Assembly: GCA_021324435.1 (NCBI GenBank)
Contig: JAJPIZ010000025.1
Span: 124,001-188,000, forward strand
Direction of reading: 5' to 3'
Length of the DNA: 64,000 nt
Origin: Anaerolineae bacterium
GTDB lineage: Bacteria; Chloroflexota; Anaerolineae; Anaerolineales; Villigracilaceae
Both the position numbers and the translations under genes were made by a program. Of the stretch, positions 44,572 through 63,394 are shown one piece after another. Under the pieces are notes generated by a model that did no database searches, had not been told where the DNA came from, and saw only the letters and a program-made list of their open reading frames with translations. The number at the start of each line of letters is the position of its first letter. The first letter of the stretch is position 1.

Positions 44572-45225
44572 ATGAAAAAACCATTGTTCCTCCTTCTCCT
44601 GAGTCTGCTATTGTCATCTTGTTCTACTTCGTTTCTATTTCCCCCCACACCGACTCCCGCTCCGCCCACCGCGACGTTTACAGCGACGGTGTATGCGTCT
44701 CCTACTCTGACTCCCTCGGTCACGCCGACGCAACCGACCCCGACTTTTACGGAAACGCCCACGTTGATTTATTCCGGCCCGACAGCGACTCCGTCGAACA
44801 CTCCGCAACCGACGAGCACGATTGGTTTGTTGATCACGGAGGTTTCGGCTCAGGGTACGCCTGAAAGCGGGCTGTTCACCTCGGTTCAAGTTTCCGGCAA
44901 TCAGATATTCTGGGGATCGTGCAAGCAGAATTTTGTTACATTCAAGGCGCGCGTTACAAACCCCAAGGTTCAACTCGTGACTTTATGGCTTCGTTTGCAG
45001 GATAAAAACAGTGATGAGTCAACCGATTGGGGCGGCGGCGCGATCATGGACGGCGATGGCAACGGAACGTTCACTTATATTTTGACCTACAAGAATATTT
45101 CGCACTACAGCGAATTCAAATCCGCCTGGGTTCAGTATCAACTCGTGGCGAGCGATAAGAAGTTGAATCGGATTGGAGCAACCCGCCTTTATTTGAACAA
45201 CATCTCGCTGGCGCCATGCCCGTGA
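44572..45225 (+). CDS. Lipoprotein with Thr/Pro-rich linker
   Basis: 217 residues. Signal peptide ends LLSSC, with Cys17 as the lipid anchor. Residues 25-85 are a Thr/Pro/Ala/Ser-rich linker, probably a flexible spacer and a candidate for O-glycosylation. A C-terminal beta-sandwich domain of about 130 residues follows, with a Cys pair. The family is unknown. It is a single-gene unit ended by the terminator at 45246. Confidence 0.7.
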   Translation: MKKPLFLLLLSLLLSSCSTSFLFPPTPTPAPPTATFTATVYASPTLTPSVTPTQPTPTFTETPTLIYSGPTATPSNTPQPTSTIGLLITEVSAQGTPESGLFTSVQVSGNQIFWGSCKQNFVTFKARVTNPKVQLVTLWLRLQDKNSDESTDWGGGAIMDGDGNGTFTYILTYKNISHYSEFKSAWVQYQLVASDKKLNRIGATRLYLNNISLAPCP

Positions 45226-45296: not shown

Positions 45297-45953
45297 TTAT
45301 GGATTCACAACACACGACCCATAATTCCACGAGCAGCCGGCCAATTGACAACTGGTTTGATCGGTAAACGCCGCACAGCCGGTTGGATTCGTCCCGCCGG
45401 GGTTGTGGGGGTTTGGCCTGATTATGACTGGTGTGACGGGAGTAACCGTCGGAGGCGGTGTGGGAGTGAGCGTTGTTACCGTGAGCGGCTCTACGATCGT
45501 GCGCACACTACAGAAATCGCTTGGTGGGTTCGGCCCCACATAGAAGCAGACTTCGTTTGAATTGATCCAGTCGCTATATTCAAATTGGTTTGATCCAACA
45601 TTCCGCCCCACTCTTCCTTGTACACTAATATAGTGTGGTCCTGCGGAACCTGCGCTCAGTGTCCATTCAAATTCATCAAAATTGATACTACGGCCTCCGT
45701 GGGCAATGACGGTGCGGGTGCCTCCGTCAATGATGTTAAACTCATAAAAACTCCAGCCGCCCACCTGATGATAATTTGCGAGGACCGCAGTGTTGACGTG
45801 TACTCGAATAGTGATTGGCTGATCGAGGGGGAACGTGTTCCCATTGCCGGGATCGGTGATGCGGATAATGCTTTCGTGTCGAAGGGCACACCCGCTGAGC
45901 GCCAAAACCGCCAACAAGATAAATACAACCGATAAAATAGATCTGACCTTCAT
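45297..45953 (-). CDS. Lipoprotein with C-terminal four-cysteine module
   Basis: 218 residues. Lipoprotein signal ends LSGC (Cys22); the ATG has an AGGAGG site. An Ig-like beta-sandwich (about 30-145) is followed by a Thr/Pro linker (about 150-185) and a short terminal module with four Cys spaced C-x8-C-x4-C-x6-C (GCAAFTDQTSC ... CSWNYGSC). The module recurs at the end of the neighbouring protein at 46171, suggesting a shared surface-binding or disulfide-capped function. No known family is recognised. Confidence 0.7.
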   Translation of the reverse strand: MKVRSILSVVFILLAVLALSGCALRHESIIRITDPGNGNTFPLDQPITIRVHVNTAVLANYHQVGGWSFYEFNIIDGGTRTVIAHGGRSINFDEFEWTLSAGSAGPHYISVQGRVGRNVGSNQFEYSDWINSNEVCFYVGPNPPSDFCSVRTIVEPLTVTTLTPTPPPTVTPVTPVIIRPNPHNPGGTNPTGCAAFTDQTSCQLAGCSWNYGSCVVNP

Positions 45954-46170: not shown

Positions 46171-46938
46171 TTATTTGCTCTCGCATTTCTTTTTCACGTA
46201 GTTGTAGCTACAGGCAGGATCAGCGTTGCAAGATGTATCGGTCGTGTACTGCGAACAATTCACACCGCCGGAGCCGGGCTTCGCAGTCGCAATCTGAATC
46301 GGAATGCACCTGTTAGTTGTAGAAGAATAATAAGTACCGGGAGGGCATAATCCTTGTGGTGTCTCGGTAGGAATTGGAATAAGTGTTTGTGTGGGTGTTG
46401 GCGCGGAAAATGTAAAGGGCGCGCTGTACGGAATGGGTGTAATCCTGTCAGTTGTACACATTCGGATTTCACTGATGTCTGCAATCACACAGATTTGAAT
46501 TGAATTTGAATAATCTCCATTCACCGGCCCGCCAAGCATTAGTATCGACTGCGCTTGAATATAGTAGATGCCGTGGCTGGACGGCGTCCAAGTGCCCGAG
46601 GCCTCGAAGAGAGCAGCTCTAGTACTATCACCCAACGTACCGACGGAATCCGCCCTTATTATTGTGGCTCTACCAATCTCCGTTGCATTCGCAAAGAATA
46701 CCACCGCGTTGAGGATAGGAAGGCCGCCGGGACCATAGTATGGGCGGTAGCCTGGAGGAAAAGGAACGAGGACTTGCAAATCGAAATTGATGGTAGTGCC
46801 AAGCATATATACCATATGTGCCGGTTCTATGAAATTGTAGGCTATGCGGTAGCGGTGCGTGACCGGTAACTCACATGCTCCGACCAACACGGAGACAATG
46901 GAGATGAGAAACGCAGACAAATGAAGATGGTTCTTCAT
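46171..46938 (-). CDS. Lipoprotein with C-terminal four-cysteine module (paralogous end)
   Basis: 255 residues. Signal ends LVGAC (Cys22), with an AAAGGAG site. A beta-rich central domain (about 30-165) is followed by a Thr/Pro linker and two Cys-containing segments, one with GLCPPGTYYSSTTNRCIP near residue 205 and the terminal CSQYTTDTSC ... ACSYNYVKKKC, which matches the end of the protein at 45297 in spacing (C-x8-C-x5-C-x8-C). The central domain is not clearly related to that paralogue. Confidence 0.7.
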   Translation of the reverse strand: MKNHLHLSAFLISIVSVLVGACELPVTHRYRIAYNFIEPAHMVYMLGTTINFDLQVLVPFPPGYRPYYGPGGLPILNAVVFFANATEIGRATIIRADSVGTLGDSTRAALFEASGTWTPSSHGIYYIQAQSILMLGGPVNGDYSNSIQICVIADISEIRMCTTDRITPIPYSAPFTFSAPTPTQTLIPIPTETPQGLCPPGTYYSSTTNRCIPIQIATAKPGSGGVNCSQYTTDTSCNADPACSYNYVKKKCESK

Positions 46939-47046: not shown

Positions 47047-47781
47047 GTGAATTTTTCTCCTGATCTTCTTTCACTGCTTCAAGAATCTTCCCACGTCGCC
47101 GCGTTGACCGGGGCCGGAGTCTCGCAAGAAAGCGGCCTCCGCACCTTCCGCGACGCGCAAGACGGCTTATGGAAACAATACAAGCCGGAAGATTTAGCGT
47201 CGCCGGAGGCCTTTCGCCGCGACCCAAAACTTGTATGGGACTGGTACGCGTGGCGGCGCGAAGCCATCAAAGGCGTGCGTCCTAACGCCGGGCATTATGC
47301 GCTCGTGGAAATGTCGAAGCACTTTTCAGAATTCACGTTGATTACCCAAAATGTGAATGGCTTGCATCGCTTCGCAGGAAGCCCGCGCGTGATCGAACTG
47401 CATGGAAATATTCAACGCGTCCGTTGCGCGGACTGTTACACTTTTGCAGATGAATGGGATGACGATGAAGCCGAAGTCCCGCGCTGCCCGGTCTGTGGTG
47501 GAATGCTCAGGCCGCATGTCGTTTGGTTTGGCGAGGCCCTCCCGAGGTCCGAGTTGGAAGCGGCAGTCGAAGCCGCGCGTAATAGCGAAGTCTTCTTTTC
47601 AATTGGAACATCGGGCGTTGTCCAGCCCGCGGCGTCACTGGCGCATGCCGCTCGTAATCGCGGCGCGGTCATCATCGAGATCAATGCAGAGCCTACCCCG
47701 CTGACTCCGAAAGCGGATTATTTTTTACAAGGCAGGTCGGGTGAGATTTTGCCGGAACTCGTAAAAGCAACATGGAAATAA
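47047..47781 (+). CDS. cobB: Sirtuin (NAD-dependent protein deacylase)
   Basis: 244 residues starting with GTG. Rossmann loop TGAGVSQESGLRTFRD (21-36), catalytic His119 (VIELHGN), zinc cysteines 127, 130, 147 and 150, and TQNVNGLH. Tyr67 and Arg70 (WYAWR) sit where E. coli CobB and SIRT5 carry the Tyr/Arg pair that binds acidic acyl groups, so desuccinylase activity beyond deacetylation is plausible. Removes acyl groups from lysine using NAD. A terminator follows at 47786. Confidence 0.93.
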   Translation: MNFSPDLLSLLQESSHVAALTGAGVSQESGLRTFRDAQDGLWKQYKPEDLASPEAFRRDPKLVWDWYAWRREAIKGVRPNAGHYALVEMSKHFSEFTLITQNVNGLHRFAGSPRVIELHGNIQRVRCADCYTFADEWDDDEAEVPRCPVCGGMLRPHVVWFGEALPRSELEAAVEAARNSEVFFSIGTSGVVQPAASLAHAARNRGAVIIEINAEPTPLTPKADYFLQGRSGEILPELVKATWK

Positions 47782-47785
47782 TTTA

Positions 47786-47819
47786 AACGACCAACCCATG
47801 CGGTTGGTCGTTCTCTTTT
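47786..47819. terminator. Terminator between convergent sirtuin and membrane-repeat genes
   Basis: AACGACCAACC pairs with GGTTGGTCGTT around CATGC, then TCTCTTTT. The reverse strand has upstream A-rich sequence and may also use it. Confidence 0.85.
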
Positions 47820-50800
47820 ATGCGCTCCAATCATTTAGCCGCGCCCCGATCTTTATGATGCGTTCCCGCAACACGACTGTCAGGATGCCAAGCAAAAGTA
47901 AAACAATGCCTGTGCAACCGATCAGAATAACCGTCGAGATTCCTTTCAGCGCGCCGTAGATCACTGTGAAGACCGACAGCACGATGAAAACGATGGGCGC
48001 GATCACCAAACTGCGTGAACGCGCTATGATGCCGTAGATCAGCACGGCCAATGCCTGAAAAAAGATCACGACAAAGTATCCGAGTTTTTCCGTTGCATAG
48101 AGCTGTATATAAGTTGTGCCGAGCAAGGTCAATTGTGAAAACATGCCGGTCAGGAACGCCCCGGTTTTGCTTCCCGCGCGCGTGAGCAAGTAATGCATTA
48201 ACATTCCCAAGATCGCCGCGCCCATCGAGAAATATTGCGGTTGATCCACTTTGAGCCACACCAGAATTAAGTAATAACTTTCAAGATATAACAAATTCAC
48301 GGGGAATCCCAGCCAGACGTTGCGGCGGGCGAAGGCCTCTATTGCGAATAATGTAGCCGCGATGGAGACGGGGATAGCCGCTTCCAACCCCGCTTGAAGC
48401 GGCGCGCTGAGCGAGTTAATGACTCCCAGCCCAAGGGCGCTGAACAATAACATCCGGCTCCAGTTCTCAGCGTTTGCGCGGCGGCGTAGAAAATAGCCGA
48501 ACGCGTAGTACAAACCCGCGATCGCGACGATCGTATAAAGCCAGTTATGCTGATGCAGATAGCGCAGTTCAAAAAAGGCGCTCAGTGGGAACGAAGCGGT
48601 CGCGGCATATCCCAAAAGCGGTTTGCGATAGAACCAGGCATAGACCGCAAAGAAGATTGTGTATGCTCCAAAACAAATCGCGGATTGTTCCGGCTTTGCG
48701 AACGCCAGCAGGATCAATCCATTCAGAACAGCCGCGGCTCCGCCCACCAGGCGAGTGAACAAAGCCAGCCGTCGCCTTGGGAGTACTCGCGCATAAATCA
48801 AATCCGCGCCAAGCCAAATGAGGCTGATACTTAGGAGAGTATAAACAAAAGCAGTGACATCGAAATCATGCAGAATGAGAACCGTCGCGATGCTAAATAG
48901 GAATGGGCCGCCTGCTTCCAGACGGTCGTCTGGACGGACGAATACTTCAACCACAGCCATTGCGCCGATGACCAGCACATACCAACCCGCGGTCGCTTTG
49001 AATGTGAGCAACGCGGTTATGGAAAGAAGGATGCCGAGGATCAAGCCGCTGGTGCGCAACATCATTCCCCAAAGACCCTCCTTTTTTAATCGGAGGAGGA
49101 GTCCTGCGGCAAAATACAGGAAGGCCAGGCCGGTAAAAACTGGAAGCCATTGATCAAGATGCGATGAATATTCCAATGAATAAAGGCTACTCAGCGCGAT
49201 GGATGTTGTAGTAGCGTAGCCAAGATTGGGCTGGCGATAAATTATGGCATAGAGCGCGAAGAAAGCCGCGTAAGCGCCATAGCAGAATGCGCCCTGGCTT
49301 GCGCTCGAAAAATTCGGCACAAGCAGAAGAAGCCCGTTCAATATGGCAATCCCGCCGCCGACAGCGCGAGTGAGACCTGCAACGCGGCGCGGGTTGAGAG
49401 TCCTCGAGAAGATCAGGTCCGCGCCGAGCCATAGCAGGCTGGCGCTCAACAGGTGATAGGTCAGTGTGTAGATTTTGAAATCTCTGAGAATGAGGATGGA
49501 GGCGATGCTGAAGAAAATCAAGCCGCTGGATTCCATCCGGTCGGCGCGGCGAAGATAGGTCTCAAAGATAAACAGCCCGCCGACGCCAAGCGCGTACCAT
49601 CCGCTCCCCGGCTCAAGCGCGATCAAAGATAGCAATGAAATGATCGCGCCCAGGGCCAGTCCGCTGATGCGGAGCATGCTTCCCCAGCCCTGGGTTTTCT
49701 CTTTTCGGAGAAAATATCCGCTGACAAAATAGAGAACAGCAAGGCCGGTAAATACCGCGACCCACGAACTAAAGTGAAAATATTGAAGTGCATATTCTAT
49801 CGAAATTGCCGTGAATGCAGTAGCAAGATATCCTATGTTGGGGGATTTGAAGTGTAAAGCGTACAGCGCGGACAAGATCGCATACGAACCGAAGACAATC
49901 GCGGATGTTTTCGGATCTTGAGATTGTGCAAATATTGCCAGGATGTTCGTAAACGCTGTAATTATCCCGATAGTAAGCGGCGGCCAACGCCACGGCTGTT
50001 TTGAACTAAATGGAGATCGGAATGCCAGCTCGGGGACTGTTAACAATAGAGCCGCGCCCAAAAATTGATAGGCCGCCTCAATGTGCGTTCGTTCCATAAG
50101 CGGCAAATTGAAGAATGTGAAATACCCCGCCAGACCTGCCAGCAATGCGCCGAACCAAATATACGCGCGCGGGCGACGGACCATAAGAATCGTGTACACG
50201 ACAGCAGTTCCCATCAGGCAGGCAAAGCCGTAGGAAACGTCCTCGAACAATCCCCATACTCCAGAGACCAGGAATAGAGATAAAGACCCCAACAATGCAG
50301 GCGCGCTAAAGTGTTGCAAATATTCTGATTTTCTGCGAAACAAAAATTCGCTGGCCGAAGCAAAAAGTGTGCCCCAAATCCATAGACCGATGATTTGAAC
50401 AGAATTGGAGGCATTGAAGAATTTGAGCATTAACCACGAGACGGGAAGCAGAGAGGCCGCGGCGGCCCAGGGGAAGAGAGCGAATGGGATCAGCGCTCCG
50501 CTCCAGGCGTAGAAGGAGGCGGAGGCAAACCAGGTCAATCCACTTGTCAGCCAATCCGCCGGGGTTGGTGAATCGAAGAACAGATTCACCGTCACAGACG
50601 CGAAGGAAATAAACAAAATTATCAACTGTGTGATCTGTGCGGCAAAAAATAAAGGGAGTGCGAACTTGTTGTCTTTCCACGTCTTGAGGACGCGGACGCC
50701 CAGGAGGCCGATCAGGTTGCTAAGAACGACGCTGAAAAGGTTCCAGTTGACAGCCGCATCGAAAATTTCACCAAAATTCAGAAAAGCCAGAGTCAGCGAT

Positions 50801-51672
50801 GCAAAGGCCGCGACACTGAACAGCCGCGAGGTATAGAACCATGTTGCGGCTCCCCAGATGACGGCCATCGTGAAAAAGACCGCCGCCCAGTATCCGCTTT
50901 CCGCCCGCCCCTCTAGATGGAGCGATTGCGAAATTACATTTGCGTCAATTGGAAGCAGAAAGGAGAAAACAATAAAAAGTGTGAAACTCGGTTGCGGCAG
51001 ACGCTTTCTGATCGCGACGGCCCCAGCCGCGAAGAGAAGGGTGACTCCCAATAGGATGGGGAGTCGCGTCGAGGCTACAAGGGCCGCCAAAATTGCCGCG
51101 GCGCCGATTACGAGGAAGGCGCCCAGATATAAAAAGATATTGATGCTGGTCTGACTAAGAAGCCGTTCGGTGAGTGTGAGGCGCGGCGCGGCAGATTCAG
51201 CAAGCGTTGGCGCTTTGGGTTGAATCTTCGCAGGCTCAGGTTTAGAGGCAGCCCTGGGTGCCGGCGCATTGGTGGGCCTTATGCTCTCAGGCGCAACGGA
51301 TTTTTCGGGTTCGATGGGCTTACGGCTGAAGTCATAGCGCCGCGCCAAAACTTCCGCCTGCTCGTGCTGGATTAATCCCTGTTCTTCCCAATCCTCTAAT
51401 TCCGCCAGGATTACGAGTCGTTCATTGGGGTTTAAATGTTTCAATGTCTGCGAACGTATATATTGGCTGACCTTCGAGTCGAGCGCTTCCAACGCCGCCT
51501 GGCGAACCGCCTTTGGCCCCTTAAGCGCCAGTCGTTCCAATTCCGCCAGGATGGCTGCGCTGCTGTAGTTGATGCGACCAAGTTCGTGGATGGCGGCAAG
51601 GCGATCTGTTGAGTCTTCGCTCTTCAGACCTTCCAAAATTCTTGCCAGGACTTCCTGTTGCGATTCGCTCAT
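47818..51672 (-). CDS. Very large polytopic membrane protein with internal repeats
   Basis: 1284 residues from the ATG at 51672, which has a GGAGGAAG site; an ATG at 51684 overlaps that site. Numbering below counts from 51684. Residues about 10-120 are helical HEAT-like repeats (LAAIHELGRI, VRQAALEALDS) that probably form a cytoplasmic protein-binding region, then a Pro/Ala linker (about 125-165). The rest, from about 180, is nearly all hydrophobic, with roughly 35-40 predicted helices. From about 597 a module of about 203 residues recurs: YAILSALYALHFKSPNIGY at 601, YAAFFALYAIIYRQPNLGY at 805, YTIFFAVYAWFYRKPLLGY at 1008. No known family or catalytic motif is recognised. Confidence 0.7.
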   Translation of the reverse strand: MSESQQEVLARILEGLKSEDSTDRLAAIHELGRINYSSAAILAELERLALKGPKAVRQAALEALDSKVSQYIRSQTLKHLNPNERLVILAELEDWEEQGLIQHEQAEVLARRYDFSRKPIEPEKSVAPESIRPTNAPAPRAASKPEPAKIQPKAPTLAESAAPRLTLTERLLSQTSINIFLYLGAFLVIGAAAILAALVASTRLPILLGVTLLFAAGAVAIRKRLPQPSFTLFIVFSFLLPIDANVISQSLHLEGRAESGYWAAVFFTMAVIWGAATWFYTSRLFSVAAFASLTLAFLNFGEIFDAAVNWNLFSVVLSNLIGLLGVRVLKTWKDNKFALPLFFAAQITQLIILFISFASVTVNLFFDSPTPADWLTSGLTWFASASFYAWSGALIPFALFPWAAAASLLPVSWLMLKFFNASNSVQIIGLWIWGTLFASASEFLFRRKSEYLQHFSAPALLGSLSLFLVSGVWGLFEDVSYGFACLMGTAVVYTILMVRRPRAYIWFGALLAGLAGYFTFFNLPLMERTHIEAAYQFLGAALLLTVPELAFRSPFSSKQPWRWPPLTIGIITAFTNILAIFAQSQDPKTSAIVFGSYAILSALYALHFKSPNIGYLATAFTAISIEYALQYFHFSSWVAVFTGLAVLYFVSGYFLRKEKTQGWGSMLRISGLALGAIISLLSLIALEPGSGWYALGVGGLFIFETYLRRADRMESSGLIFFSIASILILRDFKIYTLTYHLLSASLLWLGADLIFSRTLNPRRVAGLTRAVGGGIAILNGLLLLVPNFSSASQGAFCYGAYAAFFALYAIIYRQPNLGYATTTSIALSSLYSLEYSSHLDQWLPVFTGLAFLYFAAGLLLRLKKEGLWGMMLRTSGLILGILLSITALLTFKATAGWYVLVIGAMAVVEVFVRPDDRLEAGGPFLFSIATVLILHDFDVTAFVYTLLSISLIWLGADLIYARVLPRRRLALFTRLVGGAAAVLNGLILLAFAKPEQSAICFGAYTIFFAVYAWFYRKPLLGYAATASFPLSAFFELRYLHQHNWLYTIVAIAGLYYAFGYFLRRRANAENWSRMLLFSALGLGVINSLSAPLQAGLEAAIPVSIAATLFAIEAFARRNVWLGFPVNLLYLESYYLILVWLKVDQPQYFSMGAAILGMLMHYLLTRAGSKTGAFLTGMFSQLTLLGTTYIQLYATEKLGYFVVIFFQALAVLIYGIIARSRSLVIAPIVFIVLSVFTVIYGALKGISTVILIGCTGIVLLLLGILTVVLRERIIKIGARLNDWSA

Positions 51673-51786
51673 GGCTTCCTCCATTCTTCAGAGCAGACTC
51701 CGCTGATGCCCACATTAAAGCAGAGAATAGACGTCAGTCTAAGGCTTTTTTCGATATATGTTGTGATACAAAAAGCGATACTTGTT

Positions 51787-53283
51787 TCAGATTTTCAAAA
51801 CCACACCACTGCGCGGCGGGATCGTTACCCGGATACTTTTATTCTCTTTTTCGATTCCCACCTCGCCGAGGAGAACCCGCGTCTTGCCCTGACTCGAAGC
51901 GGATGCCGTCAAATCAACCTTGCGCGCCGCTTCAGCCGCGTTCAGCGCGACGAGGATTGCTTCCTCCGCGCGGGTCCGTTTGAAAATGTAAACCCCGTCA
52001 TTGGCATAAAGTCGCTCGAATTTGCCCCAGCGCAGGGCTTTATGTGACTTGCGAAGTTTGATCAGGCCTTTGACGAAATCGCGCAGGTTGTGATTCCATT
52101 TGCTTTCGTCCCACGGGAAAGACCGACGACATTCGGGGTCATGCCGCCCGGAAAGACCGATCTCGTCTCCGTAGAAAATGCACGGCGCGCCGGGGTAGGT
52201 GAGCAGAAACGTCAGGGCGAGTTTGAGGCTGTTGAGGTCGTGCCCGGCACAGGTCAGGAAACGAGGCGTGTCATGGCTGTCAAGCAGATTGAGTTGCACG
52301 CGCGTCACATCCGGTTTGTACATCCCCAGAATCGAATCGATCCGATTGGCGAATTCATTTGCATCAATCGGTTGGACAATGTTTTGATATCCGCCCGCTT
52401 TGAGAGTCTCGTGCAGGTCAAGATGTTTGCCGGTGAAGAAACTGAGACACGCGGCGGTGATGAGATAATTCATGCTGGCGTCGAATTGATCGCCCTGAAG
52501 CCAGCGTCGCGCGTCGTGCCAGATCTCCCCGACGATGTAAGCCTCAGGATTGATGGCGCGCACGCGTCGGCGAAATTCCCGCCAGAACGAATCGTCGTCA
52601 ATCTCGCCGGGAACATCCAGCCGCCAGCCGTCAATGCCGAATTTGACCCAATGCTCGGCCACGCCGAAAATAAATTCGCGCACCGCGGGCGTGTTGGTGT
52701 TGAATTTGGGAAGCGCGGGAAGATTCCACCAGCCTTGATATCCGATGGCTTTGAAACTACCTTCCTGTTGAATGAGGTGTTGTTCATGCGGCGAGGGATA
52801 GGCCCCCCAGTGTTTTTTGCCATACAGGCGATCGGGATCAAAGTGAAACCAATCTACATACGGTGAAGCCGCGCCGTTTTCGAGCGTATGATGAAACTGC
52901 CAGAAGCCGCGGCTGGCATGGTTGAATACGCCGTCGAGCACCACGCGGATGTTTTTTTTATGCGCTTTATCGAGCAACTCGCGCAGTGCATCGTTGCCGC
53001 CGAGGAGCGGATCCACGTTGTAATAGTCATAGGTGTGATAGCGATGATTGGAGGCGGAAGCAAATACCGGCGTAAAGTAGATGGCGTTAATGCCGAGGTC
53101 TTTGAGGTAATCAAGATGTTCGGTCACGCCGCGCAGGTCGCCGCCCTTGAAGCCGTGAGTCGTGGGCGGCGTATCCCACGCTTCCAGATTTAATCCCTGT
53201 TTGGGTACGCGTTCCGATTTTGCAAAACGGTCGGGGAAGATTTGATAGAAGATGGAATCGGTGACCCATTTTGGTGTATGCAT
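51787..53283 (-). CDS. GH13 alpha-glucan hydrolase (cytoplasmic)
   Basis: 498 residues, no signal peptide. The GH13 (alpha-amylase clan) barrel has nucleophile Asp223 (GWRLDV), acid/base Glu253 (VGEIW) and stabiliser Asp338 (LLDSHDTPR). It resembles cyclomaltodextrinase, neopullulanase and maltogenic amylase-type enzymes (FHFDPDRLYGKKHWGAYPS loop), though without their N-terminal dimerisation domain. Probably degrades imported maltodextrins to maltose and glucose. Last gene of the maltodextrin operon. A 21-base gap separates it from the exported GH13 enzyme. Confidence 0.9.
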   Translation of the reverse strand: MHTPKWVTDSIFYQIFPDRFAKSERVPKQGLNLEAWDTPPTTHGFKGGDLRGVTEHLDYLKDLGINAIYFTPVFASASNHRYHTYDYYNVDPLLGGNDALRELLDKAHKKNIRVVLDGVFNHASRGFWQFHHTLENGAASPYVDWFHFDPDRLYGKKHWGAYPSPHEQHLIQQEGSFKAIGYQGWWNLPALPKFNTNTPAVREFIFGVAEHWVKFGIDGWRLDVPGEIDDDSFWREFRRRVRAINPEAYIVGEIWHDARRWLQGDQFDASMNYLITAACLSFFTGKHLDLHETLKAGGYQNIVQPIDANEFANRIDSILGMYKPDVTRVQLNLLDSHDTPRFLTCAGHDLNSLKLALTFLLTYPGAPCIFYGDEIGLSGRHDPECRRSFPWDESKWNHNLRDFVKGLIKLRKSHKALRWGKFERLYANDGVYIFKRTRAEEAILVALNAAEAARKVDLTASASSQGKTRVLLGEVGIEKENKSIRVTIPPRSGVVLKI

Positions 53284-53304
53284 CGTTGGCCCTCGTTGAT
53301 TGAT

Positions 53305-54903
53305 TTATGGATTAAGTTGATATATGTTGATCGAGAAAGGCGGGATTTCGGCGAGGGGCTTGAAATCTGTAAAGCCGCCGCCCGCGTTGACACGGAGCGG
53401 GGACGCCGCCGCGACCCCTATCAACGCTGATGGTTGATATGTGCCCGCCGCGATTGAACTGGCATCAAGCGAGAGAGAGTAATCGCTGACAGGCGACCCG
53501 CCCAAATTAATCAGCACCAGGATGGTTTCACTCTTGACAGAGCGCAGGCTTGCAAAGAGCGCGGGGTTGTGAGCATCTGGCAAAACGATGATGTCGCTGT
53601 GCAGAGCAGGGTGTTGCTTGCGCAAATGGATCAACGTTTTATAGAGCGTGAAGAGAGAATCGGGATGGCTTTGCTCCGCGGCGACGTTGACGGTCGTGTA
53701 ATCGGCGAAGGGCGCGCGCCAGGGCGCGCCCAGGGTGAAGCCCGCACTGGCCTCCGCTGACCATTGCATGGGCAGGCGAATATCTTCATCCGGTTTTTTG
53801 CCTTGCATCCCAATTTCTTCGCCATAATAAATGAACGGTGTGCCAGGCGATGTGAGCATGAGCGCCGCGGCGACTTTGGCTTTGTTTACGTCGCCGTTCA
53901 AAACGCTCATGACACGGTTTTGATCATGGTTGGTGAGGAAAATGGCGAAGTCGAAATTTGACATGTCCTTCAACGAAAACTTGATGGCGCTGTTTACGCC
54001 GCTGTTCGACCCGCCCGCGGCGCTGTTGACGAATCCGCTGGCCATCTCGAAGTTGAAGACCTGATCGAGTTGGTTGTCGGTGTAAGATTTGACCAGCGCC
54101 GCGCCCGCGCCATAGACTTCACCGACGGCGTACGCGTTTGGGTCATCTGCTTTGTACGAGGGATAAAAGTTATTCTTGTACCATTCATGGGTGGCGGGCG
54201 TGTTTTCGGTCTGCTTGCCATCCTCGATCAAATGCTTGGCCGCGTCCACGCGGAAACCGTCTACGCCGACATCCTTCAGCCAGAAGCGGACGACGTTTTC
54301 CATCTGTGCGGTCACTTCAGGATTGCGATAGTTCAAGTCCGGCATACAATCGCAAAAGAGGCCGTAGTAGTAACCGGCTTTTCCTGGATGCCAGTTGTTG
54401 CCGGGATCGGCGTCTGACCAGACATACCAGTCTCGATATTTTGAGTCTGGGCTGTTATTTGCATCAACGAAAAATGGGTGCTGGCTGGAAGTGTGATTGA
54501 GAACAAGATCAATAATGACGTGAATGCCGCGTTTGTGCGCTTCGTTCAATACGTGTTTGAAGTCATCCATTGTGCCATATTGAGGATTGACGTTGTAGTA
54601 ATTGGTCACGTCATAGCCATGATAGGAAGGCGAAGGGTTAATGGGCATTAACCAGATGCCCGTGATGCCGAGGTCTTGCAAATAATCCAGTTTTGCGGCG
54701 ACTCCATTGAAATCGCCAATGCCGTCGCCGTTTGTGTCGTAGAAGCTGCGAACGAAGATTTCGTAAAAGACTGCATCTCGCCACCAGGGACGCGAAGCGG
54801 CCTCGGCATTGGATGAATTTGTCGAAACGGAAGCCGCTTGAGGTCCCGTTGGAACGCATGCGGCGAGGAGAGTCAGGATGAGGAGGAAGAATCGCCTGAG
54901 CAT
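53305..54903 (-). CDS. GH13 alpha-amylase, lipoprotein
   Basis: 532 residues from the ATG at 54903; in-frame sequence further upstream lies in the neighbouring permease gene. Signal peptide ends LLAAC with Cys16 as lipid anchor, then a short Ser/Ala linker. A complete GH13 barrel follows: calcium loop DTNGDGIGD (56-64), Asp220 nucleophile (GFRVD), Glu262 (VGEVYG), Asp327 (TNHDQNR). It resembles alpha-glucosidase/amylase-type enzymes. Being surface anchored, it would cleave starch outside the cell and feed the ABC transporter encoded upstream. Confidence 0.9.
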   Translation of the reverse strand: MLRRFFLLILTLLAACVPTGPQAASVSTNSSNAEAASRPWWRDAVFYEIFVRSFYDTNGDGIGDFNGVAAKLDYLQDLGITGIWLMPINPSPSYHGYDVTNYYNVNPQYGTMDDFKHVLNEAHKRGIHVIIDLVLNHTSSQHPFFVDANNSPDSKYRDWYVWSDADPGNNWHPGKAGYYYGLFCDCMPDLNYRNPEVTAQMENVVRFWLKDVGVDGFRVDAAKHLIEDGKQTENTPATHEWYKNNFYPSYKADDPNAYAVGEVYGAGAALVKSYTDNQLDQVFNFEMASGFVNSAAGGSNSGVNSAIKFSLKDMSNFDFAIFLTNHDQNRVMSVLNGDVNKAKVAAALMLTSPGTPFIYYGEEIGMQGKKPDEDIRLPMQWSAEASAGFTLGAPWRAPFADYTTVNVAAEQSHPDSLFTLYKTLIHLRKQHPALHSDIIVLPDAHNPALFASLRSVKSETILVLINLGGSPVSDYSLSLDASSIAAGTYQPSALIGVAAASPLRVNAGGGFTDFKPLAEIPPFSINIYQLNP

Positions 54904-54947
54904 GGCACAAAAATTCGGGGCGGCCTGTCCGACCGCCCCTCTTGGTT

Positions 54948-55964
54948 TTATCCTATGACTGCGCCTGACGTCAGGCCGCTGACGATTTGTTTTTGGAGGG
55001 CAACGTATATGATCGCCACCGGGAGGGCTACGATGACGGCCATCGCCGCGAAGCGATTCCATGGAATGCTGTTGGCATACTGGCCGGTCATGTTGTAAAG
55101 GGTCATCGAGAGTGTGTAATCCTTCGGCTGGCTGAGGAAAAGCCACGGAAGCGCGAACTCCTGCCAGTGGCCAATGAAACCAAGGAAGAAAGTGACGGCC
55201 AGTTGCGGAACGGCGAGGGGGAGAACGATCTGAAAGAAGACCTGATTCGGATCCGCGCCGTCAATCATGGCAGCCTCTTCGAGTTCCTTGGGGATCGTAT
55301 CCAGATAGCCTTTGAGATTCCAAACTGCGAAGGGCAATGCGCCTGCGATCATGGCAATGCCAACGCCGAAAAGTGAGTCGCGCAAGTTGAAGATCAGTTT
55401 GCCGGTGACGCCCGCCGCGCAACTTGTGATTGGATAAAAGGCAGTGATTCCTTGCCCGCAGTCTACAAACCGAAAGCTGTTCAAAAGCAAGTAAAGCGGC
55501 GTCGAGAGACCGATGGCGGGCATCAGCAGAGGAACGAAAACCAGCACCATCAAAACCTGGCGCAGTTTGAATTTGAAGCGGGAGAAGGCGTAAGCAGCGC
55601 TCACCGCAATCAGAAGAGCGGTTAACCCAACGCCAACAGAAAGCAGGAAGCTATTTCGCAACAGTTCGATGAAGGTGACCGGGTTGCCGGTTGGGTGATC
55701 CAATACTTGTTGGTAAGCAACAAAGGATATTTCTTTCGGGAACAACTCCAGGCTTGAAGGCCGTGTGGTCTTCGAGCTGAGCGACATGGTGATCACATAC
55801 ATGATCGGGAACATCACCTCAGCAGTGATAAATAAAGCCAGCAACTGCATGAGGATTTGTTTCCAAAGCGGAAATTCGCGCCCGCCGACTTCTCCGGAGG
55901 TGTTCATATTCAGGAAGCGCACGATCAGGTTTTTGCTTTTGGTTGTTTCTTTGTACGTAGACAT
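54948..55964 (-). CDS. malG: Maltodextrin ABC transporter permease MalG
   Basis: 338 residues from the ATG at 55964, which has a GGAGG site seven bases upstream; the ATG at 55979 lies in that site. Six predicted helices. The EAA loop EEAAMIDGADPNQVFFQIVLPLAVP (about residues 235-260) contacts the ATPase. Partner of MalF, separated by a single base. Part of the maltodextrin operon. Confidence 0.9.
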   Translation of the reverse strand: MSTYKETTKSKNLIVRFLNMNTSGEVGGREFPLWKQILMQLLALFITAEVMFPIMYVITMSLSSKTTRPSSLELFPKEISFVAYQQVLDHPTGNPVTFIELLRNSFLLSVGVGLTALLIAVSAAYAFSRFKFKLRQVLMVLVFVPLLMPAIGLSTPLYLLLNSFRFVDCGQGITAFYPITSCAAGVTGKLIFNLRDSLFGVGIAMIAGALPFAVWNLKGYLDTIPKELEEAAMIDGADPNQVFFQIVLPLAVPQLAVTFFLGFIGHWQEFALPWLFLSQPKDYTLSMTLYNMTGQYANSIPWNRFAAMAVIVALPVAIIYVALQKQIVSGLTSGAVIG

Positions 55965-55965
55965 C

Positions 55966-56997
55966 TCAAGCCTCCGCATAGGACTCGGTTGCGCGCGTGA
56001 TGCGGTTAGTAATCAGGAATACAACCAGGGCGACGAAGAAGACAATTACAGCGAAGGCCGCGGCCACTCCATATAAACGCAGATTGCGAACCAGGTCATA
56101 TGCAAATGTGACGAGGATTTCTGTGGAGCGCGCAGGACCACCGCCTGTCATGAAATATACGAAGTTGAACAGGTTGAAAGAAAGGGTGAAACCGTAAATG
56201 GCCGCCGGCACCATCGCCGGGCGAATCAACGGAACCGTGATATTCCAGAACTGCTGGGGGCTGGAGGCTCCGTCAATGGACGCTGCTTCATAAAGGTCTT
56301 TGGGTATGCTTTGAAGCGCACCGGTCGCCACAAGAGTCATGAAGGGCCAGCCGAGCCAGAAATTGGCGATCATCATGGCGTAGTACGCGAGAGGCAGGGG
56401 GCCGTTCGGTAAAAGCCATGGAATCGGCGGCGTGTATTCCTCGAGCCACCGCAAGTGAATCACCTGCGTGGAACCAAATAAATGAACCACCCAAGTTAGA
56501 AACTGGTTCATCGCGCCATATTGCTCGTTGAAAATATTCCGCCAGACTGTCGCCACGACCAGCGGAGGAACAACAACAGGCAAGACATAAATTGCACGAT
56601 AAATCCGCTTGAACCACAGTCCCTGTGTGTTGAGGGCAACCGCAATTAAAATTCCGGCAGGCACGTGGACGGCCACGTTGGTAATTGCCCACCAGAAGTT
56701 GTAGGTGAGAACCCGGAAGAACTCGAAATTTTGAACAGGCAAACCGCCTGTAATGATGTCAATGTAGTTCTTGAGGCCGATCTGGTGTAGATTTGGCGAG
56801 GCTAGTTGTTTGAGCAGGTCTTTTGTCTGAAAATCGGTGAATGAAATGATCACTTGAAATATCAGGGGATAGAATGTGATCACTGCCATGACGGCGAACG
56901 CGGGAACCAGATACATGTATGGAAGTAATGCTCTACGAGTGAAACCCTGCTTTCCTCGCTTGGGCATACTCGTCATCTTCATGGAAGTGGTCGCCAT
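55966..56997 (-). CDS. malF: Maltodextrin ABC transporter permease MalF
   Basis: 343 residues, six predicted helices. EAA loop: YEAASIDGASSPQQFWNITVPLIRP (about residues 233-258). It lacks the large extra periplasmic domain of E. coli MalF, as is usual for non-enterobacterial MalF-type permeases. It follows malE after 87 bases that include a strong hairpin (57040-57069). Confidence 0.9.
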   Translation of the reverse strand: MATTSMKMTSMPKRGKQGFTRRALLPYMYLVPAFAVMAVITFYPLIFQVIISFTDFQTKDLLKQLASPNLHQIGLKNYIDIITGGLPVQNFEFFRVLTYNFWWAITNVAVHVPAGILIAVALNTQGLWFKRIYRAIYVLPVVVPPLVVATVWRNIFNEQYGAMNQFLTWVVHLFGSTQVIHLRWLEEYTPPIPWLLPNGPLPLAYYAMMIANFWLGWPFMTLVATGALQSIPKDLYEAASIDGASSPQQFWNITVPLIRPAMVPAAIYGFTLSFNLFNFVYFMTGGGPARSTEILVTFAYDLVRNLRLYGVAAAFAVIVFFVALVVFLITNRITRATESYAEA

Positions 56998-57039
56998 AAT
57001 CTTCTCCTTGGTTATCGCGGTTCGATATTCTAAAGGGAC

Positions 57040-57069
57040 GGAGGCGAACAGATCAACCTGTTCGCCTCC
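57040..57069 (-). promoter_or_regulatory. Intercistronic hairpin between malE and malF
   Basis: GGAGGCGAACAG pairs with CTGTTCGCCTCC around ATCAAC. On the minus strand it lies just after the malE stop and is followed by TCCCTTTAG, not a T run. This suggests an RNA-stability element or attenuator that raises malE relative to malF. Confidence 0.6.
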
Positions 57070-57084
57070 GCAATTTAATGAGAC

Positions 57085-58263
57085 TTACTTATTGGCGTTT
57101 GCGGTAGCGGTCTTGACCCACTCAGCAGGATCAACGCCCTTCTCGTAAACATCGCTGTCACCGCAGAAGTTAGACCAGTAGAGGCCGAGTTGCGGAACCT
57201 GCGGGCGGATGTAGGAGCCGGTGTTGAAGGCTTTAAGCAGGTCCTTCATCAATGGATCGGTCACTTCAATATCCGTGCGGGCAGGCGCATGACCGGCGTC
57301 GGTCATCATTGTGGTCTCAGCGGCTTTGCCAGTCAGATAAAGCGCGACTTTGAGAGCGGCATCTTTGTTCTGGCCGTTCGGATTGAAGTAATAGCCATCA
57401 ACGCCGAGGAAAGGAGTCGCCGGGCCAGCAGGACCCTTGGGCAGGGGAGCCACACCCAGTTTGTCGCCGAGAGCCTTGCGGTAATCATTCATCGCCCAGT
57501 TGCCGTTGGTGATGGCGGCCATCTTGCCTTCTGTGAAGGGTGCGAGGCCATCGCTATCATTCTTGGGCCAGCCATTCTTCTTGGAGATCTGATACAGGCT
57601 GTTCAGGTAGGTCATGGCATCGGTCACGCCTGTGCCCTGATCGGCGATAACCTTCCAGTTGTCATCGAAGATCTTGCCGCCGAAAGCGCCGAAGAAGCCG
57701 AAGTCATGGTAGCAACCGTAGCTGATGGAAATCGGCGTGCCGCCTTCCATGAGGGCCTTGAGATCATCTGTTGTGGCAGGTGGAGTGGGAAGCATGTCTT
57801 TGTTGTACCAGAAGACGACTGCCTTGAGAGACTCAGGGATGCCATACAGTTTGCCGTCCACGGTCATGCCGTCAATGGACAGTTTGCTGTAATTGTCGAG
57901 CTTGCCTTTTGCAAGATCGGTGATGTCGGCCAGCAGACCGTTGCGAGCATCATCGCCGAGGGAGTCGTTCGGGGCGACGAACAGATCGGGTCCAGCGCCC
58001 GCGGCAACATCCGTGCGGTACTTGTTGAAAATATCATTGAATGGAACCTGGAGCACATTGATCTTGATGTCTGGCATGTCAGTTGCGGCTTGCGCGAGGA
58101 CCTTGGTCAGTGCAGTCTCTTCCGCGGAGCCTGTGCCATACGCGTGCCAGAGGGTGATTTCCACCGGCGCTGTGGAGACGGGGGTGGCTTTTGGGCCGCA
58201 GGCCGAAAGTGCGAACGCGGCAATCAGCAGGACGCTGAATAGCGCGAACAGTTTCTTGTTCAT
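57085..58263 (-). CDS. malE: Maltodextrin ABC transporter binding protein MalE
   Basis: 392 residues. Lipoprotein signal ends ALSAC (Cys22). The family 1 extracellular binding-protein motifs are seen: EITLWHAYGTGSAEETALTKV, PDLFVAPNDSLGD, and TNGNWAMND near residue 250. It delivers maltodextrin (substrate inferred from neighbours and the GH13 genes) to MalF/MalG. ATG has an AAGGAG site. Confidence 0.9.
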   Translation of the reverse strand: MNKKLFALFSVLLIAAFALSACGPKATPVSTAPVEITLWHAYGTGSAEETALTKVLAQAATDMPDIKINVLQVPFNDIFNKYRTDVAAGAGPDLFVAPNDSLGDDARNGLLADITDLAKGKLDNYSKLSIDGMTVDGKLYGIPESLKAVVFWYNKDMLPTPPATTDDLKALMEGGTPISISYGCYHDFGFFGAFGGKIFDDNWKVIADQGTGVTDAMTYLNSLYQISKKNGWPKNDSDGLAPFTEGKMAAITNGNWAMNDYRKALGDKLGVAPLPKGPAGPATPFLGVDGYYFNPNGQNKDAALKVALYLTGKAAETTMMTDAGHAPARTDIEVTDPLMKDLLKAFNTGSYIRPQVPQLGLYWSNFCGDSDVYEKGVDPAEWVKTATANANK

Positions 58264-58366
58264 TCTCTTATTCTCCTTGAAATATTTTGGCTTTCTGAAT
58301 ACAAAAAATCATCAGCATTGACTAACCATATAAAGCGGCATCACCTCCTTTGTCCTGAACGATGCG

Positions 58367-59467
58367 TTAGCGAATGGCCTGTTCAGTTTCCGCATCGAAG
58401 ATATGGAATTTGTCCATGTCGAACGCGACCTGTGTCTGATTCCCCACGCGCAGTTGCGAGCGCGGGTCGACGCGTGCAACAAAGGTATTTTTGCCGCTAA
58501 GGAGGTATAGAAAAATTTCATTGCCCATTAATTCGGTGACATCCACTTTGGCCTCGACTTTTTCCGCGTGGATGTTCGGCGGGAGAAAAGCGGCATCGTG
58601 AATGTTCTCCGGGCGAATGGCGAAGATGACGCTTTTGTCTGTGTGCGATGCGTAGACCTTGGAACGGTCCGCGGGGATGGGGACAATGAAGTCGCCTGTG
58701 TCAACGATCAGCCTGCCGTTGTCTTTGCGAAGTTTTGCCGGGAAGAAGTTCATAGCAGGGGAGCCAATAAAGCCTGCCACAAACAGGTTGGCCGGGCTGT
58801 CGTATAAATTCTGAGGCGTATCGAGTTGTTGTAGCTTGCCTTTGTTGATGACTGCGATGCGCGTCGCCATGGTCATGGCTTCGGTCTGATCGTGGGTCAC
58901 ATAAATGAATGTGGTCTCGAGGCGTTGATGTAATTTGCTGATCTCGGCACGCATCTGGACGCGCAACTTTGCATCGAGGTTGGAGAGTGGCTCGTCGAAA
59001 AGAAAAACCTTAGGCTCACGCACAATCGCACGTCCCACGGCAACGCGCTGGCGCTGTCCGCCGGAAAGCTGGCGGGGTTTCCGATTCAATAAATCAGTGA
59101 TGCCGAGGATATCCGCGGCTTCTTCGACCCGCTTTTTGATCACATCCTTGTTCACTTTGCGGAGCTTGAGACCGAATGCCATGTTGTCATACACCGATAA
59201 GTGAGGGTAGAGGGCGTATGACTGGAAGACCATTGCGATATCGCGATCCTTCGGCGCCACATCGTTGACCACCCGGTCGCCGATCAGAATCCTGCCGTCG
59301 CTGATTTCCTCGAGCCCAGCGAGGCATCGCAGGGCTGTCGTCTTGCCACAGCCCGATGGACCCACCAGGACGAGAAACTCCTTGTCATCCACGTGGATGT
59401 TTAGATTGTCAACGGCCACTGCGTCCCCAAATTTTTTGGTGACATTGTCATAAGTTACGCTCGCCAT
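58367..59467 (-). CDS. malK: Maltodextrin ABC transporter ATPase MalK
   Basis: 366 residues. Walker A GPSGCGKT (36-43), signature LSGGQ (134-138), Walker B FLFDEP (155-160), and a C-terminal TOBE domain (about 235-360) that often binds regulatory sugars or proteins. MsmX/MalK-type ATPase energising MalF/MalG. It lies between the ROK regulator gene (39 bases upstream) and malE. Confidence 0.92.
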
Positions 59468-59506
59468 AGTTACCTCTTTTCTGGGATAGCACCCGCTTAT
59501 AAATTA

Positions 59507-60817
59507 TTATACTTTAGCCATTCTGGTTTCAGTTTCTTCCACTACCAACAAAGACGACTTGTTTTCGGCAGTTTGGTGTAATGCAATAGAAACCGCCTGA
59601 ATAACCGCGCCCATACACGATGAACGCCTGCCCAGCAAGGCAGTTGTGATTCGAACTGCCTGCGCGGCCGCCGGCAGGCTCCGTTTCTGGACCGCTTTTC
59701 TGACAGGCTCGAGGAACAAATCTCCGATTTGCGCGACGCCACCCCCCACGATGACCATTCCCGGATTAAATAGATTAACAAGACCCGCAATCGCCACACC
59801 CAGATGATCGCCCGCCTGCGAAAGGATTTGCTGGGAAAGCAAATCTCCGCGGCGTGCGGCGGCGGCCACATCCTTCGCGGAGATATTTTCAGGCGGCGCG
59901 ATTGTGTTTAATTGTGTGCGCTGTCCGTTCCGAACAGCATCCTGAGCCTGAAGTGCAATTGCCTTTCCACCGGCAATGGCTTCCAAACAGCCTCGGTTAC
60001 CGCAGGTACAAAGCGGACCGTTCTCGTCAATCGTAAGATGACCGACTTCACCGGCGGAACCTGTCGCGCCGCGATAAATTTCACCATTTAGTAAAATACC
60101 CGACCCGATCCCGGTTCCCACTTTGATGTATGCTAGATTCTTCTGACCGCGCCCTGCGCCGCAAGCCCATTCACCCAGCGCGCCCAATTCTGCATCATTG
60201 TTGAGCGAGACAGGACGTTTCCAAAGTTTTTCCAACGTTTCCAGGATGGGAAACCGATCCCACCCCGGCATAATCGGGGGCGCCAAGACCATTCCGGCCT
60301 CGGCCACAATCGGGCCGGGTACGCCTACGCCAATCGCAACAAGATCGGCCAGAACAAGGCCGCTGGCAGTGAGTAATTCGCTCAATAATTCATTGGCTTG
60401 AGCGATACAAATGTCCGGCCCTTTGGAAATGTCGAAAGGAACTTCCTTTTCCTTGATTACATGTGTGGCCAAATTGGCAATTATGGCCGAGAGATGAGTG
60501 GCCCCCATATCAATGCCTGCTACATATCCCCGCTCCGGGTGGATTTCCAGAATCACAGGAGGACGCCCGCTGTTGACCGATCGGCTTTCCGCCTCTCGGA
60601 TAATTCCGTTTGAAATCAGATCATTAACGATGGAGGTCACAGCCGCACGCGTGAGTGACATGCGTTGAGCAAGTTCAACTCGCGAAATTCCACCCGGTGT
60701 GAAACGGATTAAATCCAGAGCCACGTGTTTGTTAAGACTTTTTACATGCTGGGCCGGGATTGGCGTGAAAAAAGTGCTCAACTCGTATTTTCCTGATAAG
60801 AATGAATGGGATTTCAT
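59507..60817 (-). CDS. ROK-family transcriptional regulator
   Basis: 436 residues from the ATG at 60817. An N-terminal winged helix-turn-helix (about 25-95, ISRVELAQRMSLTRAAVTSIVNDLI) precedes a ROK sugar-binding domain with GIDMGATHLSAI, GVGVPGPIV and the zinc motif GHLTIDENGPLCTCGNRGCLEAI. Likely represses the maltodextrin operon and is relieved by a sugar. The predicted -10 box ends only four bases before this ATG, so either the mRNA is leaderless or a later start is used. Confidence 0.88.
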   Translation of the reverse strand: MKSHSFLSGKYELSTFFTPIPAQHVKSLNKHVALDLIRFTPGGISRVELAQRMSLTRAAVTSIVNDLISNGIIREAESRSVNSGRPPVILEIHPERGYVAGIDMGATHLSAIIANLATHVIKEKEVPFDISKGPDICIAQANELLSELLTASGLVLADLVAIGVGVPGPIVAEAGMVLAPPIMPGWDRFPILETLEKLWKRPVSLNNDAELGALGEWACGAGRGQKNLAYIKVGTGIGSGILLNGEIYRGATGSAGEVGHLTIDENGPLCTCGNRGCLEAIAGGKAIALQAQDAVRNGQRTQLNTIAPPENISAKDVAAAARRGDLLSQQILSQAGDHLGVAIAGLVNLFNPGMVIVGGGVAQIGDLFLEPVRKAVQKRSLPAAAQAVRITTALLGRRSSCMGAVIQAVSIALHQTAENKSSLLVVEETETRMAKV

Positions 60818-60821
60818 GTAA

Positions 60822-60849
60822 ATGATAGCACGGAAAAAAAGTTTGTCAA
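60822..60849 (-). promoter_or_regulatory. Promoter of the ROK-mal operon
   Basis: On the minus strand: TTGACA at 60849-60844 and TATCAT at 60827-60822, spacer 16 bases. The -35 lies in the inverted repeat at 60843-60861. Confidence 0.6.
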
Positions 60850-60861
60850 GTAGTTTGACAA
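60843..60861. promoter_or_regulatory. Candidate operator of the ROK regulator
   Basis: Perfect inverted repeat TTGTCAA-N5-TTGACAA over the -35 box of the operon promoter. Position and symmetry suit a dimeric repressor controlling its own operon. Confidence 0.6.
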
Positions 60862-60872
60862 TATTTTAATGC

Positions 60873-60905
60873 AATCAGGCCTCGCTTTTTATGCGAGGCC
60901 TGATT
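60873..60905 (-). terminator. Terminator of the VIT1-like gene
   Basis: AATCAGGCCTCGC pairs with GCGAGGCCTGATT around a TTTTTAT-type loop, eight bases after the minus-strand stop at 60914. The T-rich tail is weak on the minus strand. Confidence 0.7.
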
Positions 60906-60913
60906 AGGAATAT

Positions 60914-62038: not shown

Positions 62039-62095
62039 GTGTTCCTCCCGAAAATAATGCTCCCATCGAATCGAATTTCGACAGGAGTTTTTTTG

Positions 62096-63394
<1,299 letters not shown>

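Follow-up and report, generated by a model that had tools for sequence, protein, structure and literature searches.

Two uncharacterised families of membrane proteins, DUF2157 (PF09925) and SCO7613_CTERM (NF047321), are the closest described relatives of the gene reported here. DUF2157 is described as the transmembrane (TM) part of LiaF, within the four-TM LiaI-LiaF-TM sensory domain of phage shock protein (PSP) systems (PMC11237479). A second report treats SCO7613 of S. coelicolor as a putative polyhydroxyalkanoate synthase, the deletion of which lowered the polymer without abolishing it and was non-lethal, and poses a role in glycerol transport as a question (PMC8313934). Here we describe a giant membrane protein gene in a 64,000-nucleotide (nt) stretch of contig JAJPIZ010000025.1 (hereafter the window) from an Anaerolineae bacterium of the Villigracilaceae. 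Its product combines a HEAT-type head with tandem multi-helix modules, and its architecture and its kinship with the two families are, in our judgement, very probably as set out below.

The whole open reading frame (ORF) encodes 1288 amino acids (aa). An alternative ATG at 51672, the end given for the gene in a first-pass annotation made from the letters alone, would yield 1284 aa and is likelier to be the start, because it is preceded by GGAGGA. Residue numbers refer throughout to the 1288-aa form of the window protein, whose parts are as follows.

47818..51684, minus strand: whole ORF, 1288 aa.
51445..51663, minus strand: HEAT-type head, residues 8-80, five short helices (HEAT_2, AlphaFold2 model, alphaRep match).
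51304..51432, minus strand: DUF2157-like, predicted cytosolic N-terminal motif, residues 85-127, WEEQGLIQHEQAEVLARRYDF (hhalign to DUF2157 sequences).
51175..51303, minus strand: Pro/Ala-rich linker, residues 128-170, of low confidence (predicted local distance difference test score, pLDDT, mostly 40-60 and <50 at 128-152).
50545..51171, minus strand: core1, the first TM domain, residues 172-380, helices 1-7, of which helices 1-3 are strongly conserved (model, helix conservation, profiles).
49909..50544, minus strand: core2, a degenerate module copy, residues 381-592, 8 helices (hhalign).
49303..49908, minus strand: module 1 (m1), residues 593-794, 8 TM helices (pairwise scores, iterated profile, model).
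48691..49296, minus strand: module 2 (m2), residues 797-998, 8 TM helices (pairwise scores, iterated profile, model).
48082..48687, minus strand: module 3 (m3), the terminal module, residues 1000-1201 (iterated profile, model, and a tree that places it as orthologous in 59 proteins).
47821..48081, minus strand: conserved C-terminal cap (C-tail), residues 1202-1288, 3 helices (model, conservation), the last ~50 residues modelled with low confidence.

The tandem repeat is real. Local alignment (BLOSUM62, 300 shuffles for each pair) scored 488 for m1/m2, 194 for m1/m3 and 205 for m2/m3, far above the shuffle maxima of 63, 72 and 71, at identities of 48%, 32% and 36%, respectively. An iterated profile sets the module bounds at 593-794, 797-998 and 1000-1201, a unit of ~203 aa. 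The first-pass annotation had claimed three polytopic copies behind a HEAT-type head, and this architecture is borne out, with its motif positions 601, 805 and 1008 exact. Of the two patterns that it had attributed to all three copies, YAxxxALYAxxx[RK]xPxxGY is present at residues 601 and 805 and takes a looser form at 1008, and the GxRRADR-like pattern is confined to modules 1 and 2, module 3 carrying ARRN instead. The repeat also extends beyond that description. Residues 381-592 align with the module as a degenerate copy (hhalign E 9e-11 over 191 columns and, once inserts are removed, 6.5e-10, with 191-192 columns aligned across the two runs; the reversed control gave 0.35 and five shuffles gave 0.28-0.78), which single-sequence pairwise comparison misses, m1 scoring 39 against the preceding part for a shuffle mean of 43.8. 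Moreover, each module consists of two halves of ~100 residues and 4 TM helices that align with one another at E 3-4e-6 (reversed control 0.22-0.24).

Further readings of the repeat were rejected. Core1 (172-380) compared with the module gave E 0.005-0.007 (reversed 0.043, five shuffles 0.1-0.52), and is not claimed as a copy because a reversed TM profile (380-592) alone reached E 0.0055 elsewhere. The TM helices of DUF2157 did not match as a source of the half-module (module E 0.091, first half 0.053, second half 0.34). At the DNA level, the window holds only three repeated pairs of 18-34 nt, whose spacings differ from the module period.

AlphaFold2 models were run in two parts on alignments of the window protein and related loci, giving a mean pLDDT of 89.7 and a predicted template-modelling score (pTM) of 0.74 for residues 1-593, and 88.0 and 0.72 for residues 593-1288; the last ~50 residues are poorly modelled (block mean pLDDT 37-62). 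The models contain 42 long helices of 16-32 residues (7 in core1, 8 in core2, 8 in each of the three modules and 3 in the C-tail), compared with 36 segments called by a plain hydropathy scan. When the N-terminus is presumed inside, with alternation at all 42 helices, the loops and caps hold 48 K+R inside versus 13 outside, and 13 D+E inside versus 22 outside; the positive-inside bias (inside > outside) recurs in 56/56 and 47/47 aligned rows, window included. A row of antiparallel TM helices is likely.

The Foldseek rows shown are largely soluble helical-repeat proteins with template-modelling scores of ~0.1-0.36, several of which we take to be TPR or HEAT proteins. VIA reached Z 12.1 with the C-terminal part and Z 13.7 with the N-terminal part; the tool cautions that helical repeats commonly score below about 13. 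Heading the list for the N-terminal model are chains of ESX complexes (Z 13.7, root-mean-square deviation (rmsd) 9.8 over 273 residues; Z 13.7, rmsd 6.1 over 226), presumably EccD, the tool naming the complex alone. They are accompanied by the designed circular repeat protein 7rdr (Z 12.7, rmsd 13.6 over 393) and a TehA/SLAC1 homologue (Z 8.8, rmsd 2.8 over 103), the only transporter or channel that we recognised among the VIA rows shown, which does not prove that others are absent. By sequence, the head alone matched a solved homologue; the TM part matched none.

The head (residues 10-68) matches Pfam HEAT_2 (PF13646) at E 2.5e-4 and 21.7 bits, below the cut-off of 27.7, and 11 of the 23 members of an alignment of chosen proteins (A1), window included, match the same model at E <= 0.1 (best 2.3e-6). 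It also matches designed alphaRep chains (phmmer E 1.3e-8 to 4zv6 over residues 13-70), alphaRep being a fold that we take to be HEAT-type. In the model, helices span residues 9-20, 25-37, 43-55, 58-68 and 71-80, with block pLDDT of 91-98 over residues 11-80. Following the head, residues 85-125 align with four DUF2157 sequences (hhalign E 1.5e-7, reversed control 0.39). The motif is also the best PF09925 match of its own genome, but it scores 16.3 bits, and every one of the 14 control genomes gave matches at that level too. In 22 of the 59 relatives, homology to the N-terminus of the window protein does not begin until residue 159-270 of the frame read from stop to stop, which leaves an extra N-terminal stretch of roughly 160-270 residues (loci L031, L033-L039, L043, L048 and others; L and G numbers are our labels for loci and genomes); many of these extended N-termini open with a shared AKAAYNWLRISPLxT-like motif, which the window protein lacks.

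Of the 152 genomes from the same family, 85 match at E <= 0.001, as do 18 of 121 genomes in an order sample, and a C-part profile matches 11 of 301 genomes of a phylum sample, 9 of them from the same family. Two short conserved patterns, searched against the genomes of 84,980 species, gave 68 loci, all titled Chloroflexota or groups that we take to be placed there; their class-level names, where given, are Anaerolineae or its groups, one Herpetosiphon excepted. The relatives found are all Chloroflexota. The own genome holds no second paralogue, its sole match at E <= 0.01 being the gene itself, and a first contig scan with the single window protein as query gave no match.

Sixty regions, chosen for long open frames rather than at random, were fetched, 58 from the 85 matching family genomes and two (G117 and G109) from the order sample. 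Phmmer located a family ORF in 59 of them (L088, which had none, was handled apart), and the window protein brings the set to 60. Counting as full-length any profile match of >100 bits and >=170 profile positions, we found no module in 1 protein, one in 10, two in 29, three in 14 and four in 6, so that the single-module homologues for which the first-pass annotation had proposed a search exist; L061, of 876 aa, is one such relative. In these counts, L085 is scored 0 (two partial, overlapping matches), L074 is scored 3 (plus one partial), L072 and L087 are scored 1 (plus a 76-bit partial and five 43-50 bit first-half matches, respectively), and near-identical genomes such as those of L046 and L053 are retained.

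In a FastTree phylogeny of 134 modules, from which partial modules were excluded and in which the program flagged long branches in L075, L073, L040 and L058, a single branch with support 100 has all 59 last modules together on the same side. The inner modules group by lineage, mixing positions: the four m1 and m2 modules of the window protein and its congener G118 cluster together (support 99), as do the first three modules of L054 (support 100). Modules 2 and 3 of L074 are 91% identical with a synonymous divergence (dS) of 0.20, which points to a recent duplication within the gene. On the module tree and the L074 pair, the last module and C-tail are one orthologous block, and the inner modules were duplicated separately in several lineages. 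In L087, the first module half is matched five times in a row across residues 619-1115 (~95-104 aa and 43-50 bits each), ahead of a full module; this protein appears to have grown by the 4-TM half rather than by the 8-TM module.

Conservation was read from two further alignments, A2 (47 rows, without single-module proteins, L053, L066 and L085) and A3 (56 rows, without L053, L066, L072 and L087). By helix it amounts to 0.70-0.83 for helices 1-3, 0.48-0.70 for helices 4-35 and 0.73-0.85 for helices 36-42, with the peak in the first three helices and the last seven. Relative to congener G118, identity is 71% for core1, 62% for core2, 64% for m1, 66% for m2, 78% for m3 and 78% for the C-tail, with ratios of nonsynonymous to synonymous divergence (dN/dS) of 0.13, 0.17, 0.18, 0.23, 0.13 and 0.11, respectively, and in the six remaining pairs, too, the C-terminal end follows this trend. 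The head of the window/G118 pair, cut by a fixed offset, has an undefined dS and is excluded from the selection reading. A decaying gene is ruled out, dN/dS never being >0.42 in any part of the seven pairs. Residues invariant in the 47 rows (A2 positions + 592) include E1116, H1164, Q1184, R1222-S-R-S1225, R1273 and E1274; those polar residues of the terminal block from E1116 to R1222-S-R-S1225 would mostly face the predicted cytosolic side.

The kinship runs through intermediates. L130 (961 aa) exceeds both cut-offs, with 40.5 bits for DUF2157 and 63.4 bits for SCO7613_CTERM, and matches the profiles of the window family for core1 (32 bits), module (39) and C-tail (58). L088 (2285 aa) exceeds the SCO7613_CTERM cut-off (56.2 bits), lies below that of DUF2157 (19.9 bits), and matches the head (138 bits), core1 (43) and C-tail (48) profiles. 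L126 matches the C-tail profile at 58 bits and NF047321 at 82.4 bits. Profile matches to intermediates are listed down to a domain E of 0.05, and the weakest may be chance. Within A1, 15 of 23 members match NF047321 at E <= 1 (best 3.3e-9) over their C-terminal ~165-180 residues. The corresponding match in the window protein lies below the threshold.

47884..48363, minus strand: sub-threshold SCO7613_CTERM match covering the latter half of module 3 plus the C-tail, 19.5 bits for a cut-off of 45 (G000:C28:171884-172363).

The best close relative listed (G071) reaches 42.0 bits, still under 45. Against PF09925, hmmscan found no match in the window protein, which reaches 16.3 bits over profile positions 1-30 and 11.0 bits over 33-139, under the gathering score of 32.4. 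The window protein, being below the curated cut-off, is therefore a relative and not a member of SCO7613_CTERM, and the intermediates place it among the divergent relatives of the DUF2157/SCO7613_CTERM group of membrane proteins. The first-pass annotation had called the architecture unusual and had set a match to a well-known family of like architecture as the case against it, which applies in part: the intermediates tie both ends to DUF2157 and SCO7613_CTERM, and four related giants (2285-2387 aa) are also internally repetitive (off-diagonal E down to 5e-20 in their alignment, a comparison that did not include a reversed control), yet the window protein itself falls below both cut-offs.

The membrane gene ends a minus-strand run at 47818-63394 that comprises genes for enolase, a VIT1-family protein, a ROK protein, a MalK-type ATPase, a solute-binding protein, two permeases and two GH13 enzymes, then the membrane gene itself; we read this run as a maltodextrin uptake and breakdown cluster. 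The membrane gene is flanked by the following genes.

51787..53283, minus strand: GH13 maltogenic-amylase-type enzyme, 102 bp upstream of the membrane gene (conserved context).
47047..47781, plus strand: Sir2/CobB family gene, converging on the membrane gene (neighbour scan).

Both neighbours recur. GH13 lies upstream on the same strand in at least 43 of 60 loci (three at only 22-26% identity), and Sir2 lies downstream on the opposite strand in at least 34 of 60, the counts being lower bounds with varying flank lengths. Of 15 gene-less genomes checked, five (loci L160-L164) have GH13 and Sir2 side by side, with gaps between match ends of 60 bp in G161, 79 in G062, 9 in G131, 82 in G111 and 223 in G160, the last genome being 78% complete with its Sir2 match in two pieces. 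Two of these genomes, G062 and G111, encode a DUF2157-type giant at another site. In G087 (L088, 2285 aa) and G212 (L139, 2324 aa), one of the four DUF2157/SCO7613-type giants lies below GH13, in the slot of the shorter protein elsewhere, which possibly reflects displacement at one locus.

Other observations concern the surroundings. A threonine/proline-rich lipoprotein-like gene (44572-45225, plus strand) turns up repeatedly, on the other strand from the membrane gene and mostly past Sir2, in 19 of 60 loci with the window copy as query and 21 of 60 with the L032 copy. Two lipoprotein-like ORFs (45297-45953 and 46171-46938, minus strand) share a cysteine-rich C-terminal pattern (CxxxTxxTSC...CSxNY...C-like). 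A defence system was rejected: PADLOC, run on three proteins, gave no match for the window protein and L061, and the E 0.073 match of L075 is taken as chance.

The explanation that we favour as a whole, with confidence a little short of even, is a Chloroflexota inner-membrane repeat protein acting as a scaffold or sensor. Its N-terminus, predicted inside, carries a HEAT-type dock, the DUF2157-like motif and a flexible linker. After these come the first TM domain, then 4+4-helix modules in tandem, the count of which changes through duplication within the gene, and lastly a conserved terminal block made up of the second half of the last module and the three-helix cap. The two conserved ends would do specific work, the modules would serve as an extensible helical spacer within the membrane, and the HEAT head would recruit a cytosolic partner. 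Considered as a mechanism, scaffold or sensor action is a tentative proposal, and it is our best inference, with transport next. Several results weigh against this picture. On the side of kinship, hmmscan of the window protein against NCBIfam gave no match, NF047321 included, and the six-frame search of its own genome with SCO7613_CTERM stayed at 19.5 bits (E 1e-3) under the cut-off of 45. On the side of structure, Foldseek found nothing at E <= 0.001 with either model part, and the VIA matches, at a level common for helical repeats, do not distinguish a solenoid from a closed ring or a bundle. The contrast between conserved ends and variable middle has its exceptions: helices 4-7 of core1 are conserved no better than the modules (0.51-0.60), and in the L036/L038 pair an inner module (71%) exceeds core1 (69%). 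There is no known partner gene; 67 of 152 family genomes, many of them incomplete, have no match at E <= 0.001, the gene being not essential across the clade; and a transporter with extra modules would give much of the same pattern.

A transporter, channel or flippase, handling an oligosaccharide or lipid-linked sugar in the service of the maltodextrin operon, is in our view unlikely. The gene follows the MalK-type ATPase, the solute-binding protein, the permeases and the GH13 genes on one strand, the GH13 link recurs across the loci counted above, and the glycerol-transport question raised for SCO7613 points the same way (PMC8313934). The operon link is nevertheless weak evidence of function, because the slot is conserved with or without the gene: the non-operonic Sir2 gene is conserved nearby almost as often as GH13, so gene order here is slow to change, and five of the 15 gene-less genomes keep the two flanking genes adjacent, 9-223 bp apart. 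Furthermore, no Pfam or NCBIfam sugar-transporter model was matched by the window protein or appears among the matches of the 23 members (single members matched models of a Sec-independent translocase, at E 0.072, and of TonB, at E 0.32, both taken as chance), and a variable module number would be odd for a defined substrate path. Rather doubtful is an envelope-stress sensor of the LiaF/DUF2157 type, in which the TM repeats would respond to the condition of the bilayer and the head, in the cytosol, would relay the signal. The DUF2157-like motif, and a half-module that has four TM helices like the sensory domain in which DUF2157 is described (PMC11237479), are consistent with it; the match is, however, limited to a ~40-residue cytosolic motif, the TM part (172-330) finding no match in a small DUF2157 set (E 0.37, reversed 0.26), and no PSP or two-component gene occurs among the ten window genes scanned or among the few recurrent neighbour clusters inspected, the latter without a family-library scan. 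A lipid-filled ring or vestibule, formed or lined within a larger complex as by EccD of ESX secretion systems, is very unlikely: the ESX-complex chains taken to be EccD head the VIA matches and the circular 7rdr also matches, but the scores are close to those common for helical repeats, the rmsd values are large, Foldseek is silent at the threshold given above, and no ESX gene is among the ten window genes scanned.

Beyond the favoured scaffold or sensor, the protein may be a membrane counterpart of soluble HEAT/TPR solenoids, in which a doubled 4-TM unit is gained or lost in tandem and the number of modules sets the span of the array, making it a ruler or platform between fixed functional ends; this is a conjecture with the chances clearly against it. 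Membrane proteins that have duplicated internally have usually doubled just once. In this gene, separate lineages have gained a whole 8-helix module in tandem (0 to 4 full-length copies, one pair at dS 0.20), providing a natural copy-number series for studying the contribution of TM repeats to such a protein. The link between tandem TM units and DUF2157 and SCO7613_CTERM may help to explain both families.

The literature matches listed, judged from titles and abstract openings, include no description of this repeat architecture. What appears new is the HEAT-headed, module-repeat variant; the kind itself, the relatives of DUF2157/SCO7613_CTERM, is already known and uncharacterised. Compared with SCO7613_CTERM, the relatives of the window protein align through their C-terminal ~165-180 residues over most of the model, whereas the window protein has a HEAT head and near-regular 203-aa modules, and the proteins over the cut-off (961 to 2285 aa) show weak module matches of <=39 bits. 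DUF2157, which occurs towards the N-terminus of large membrane proteins as well as in LiaF, shares the cytosolic motif W..GLI..eQA..l..RYd, which precedes the first TM domain as in the window protein, and its carriers, such as L130, match the core1 profile of the window family (32 bits). The likeness to HEAT repeats (PF13646, alphaRep) is confined to residues 10-70; the window head has about two repeats, is fused to a TM array and scores below the Pfam cut-off. Finally, the ESX-complex chains and the TehA/SLAC1 homologue give local structural matches to successive TM helices of the window protein, at a level common for helical repeats, whereas EccD-type and TehA/SLAC1 proteins have a fixed and far smaller number of helices.

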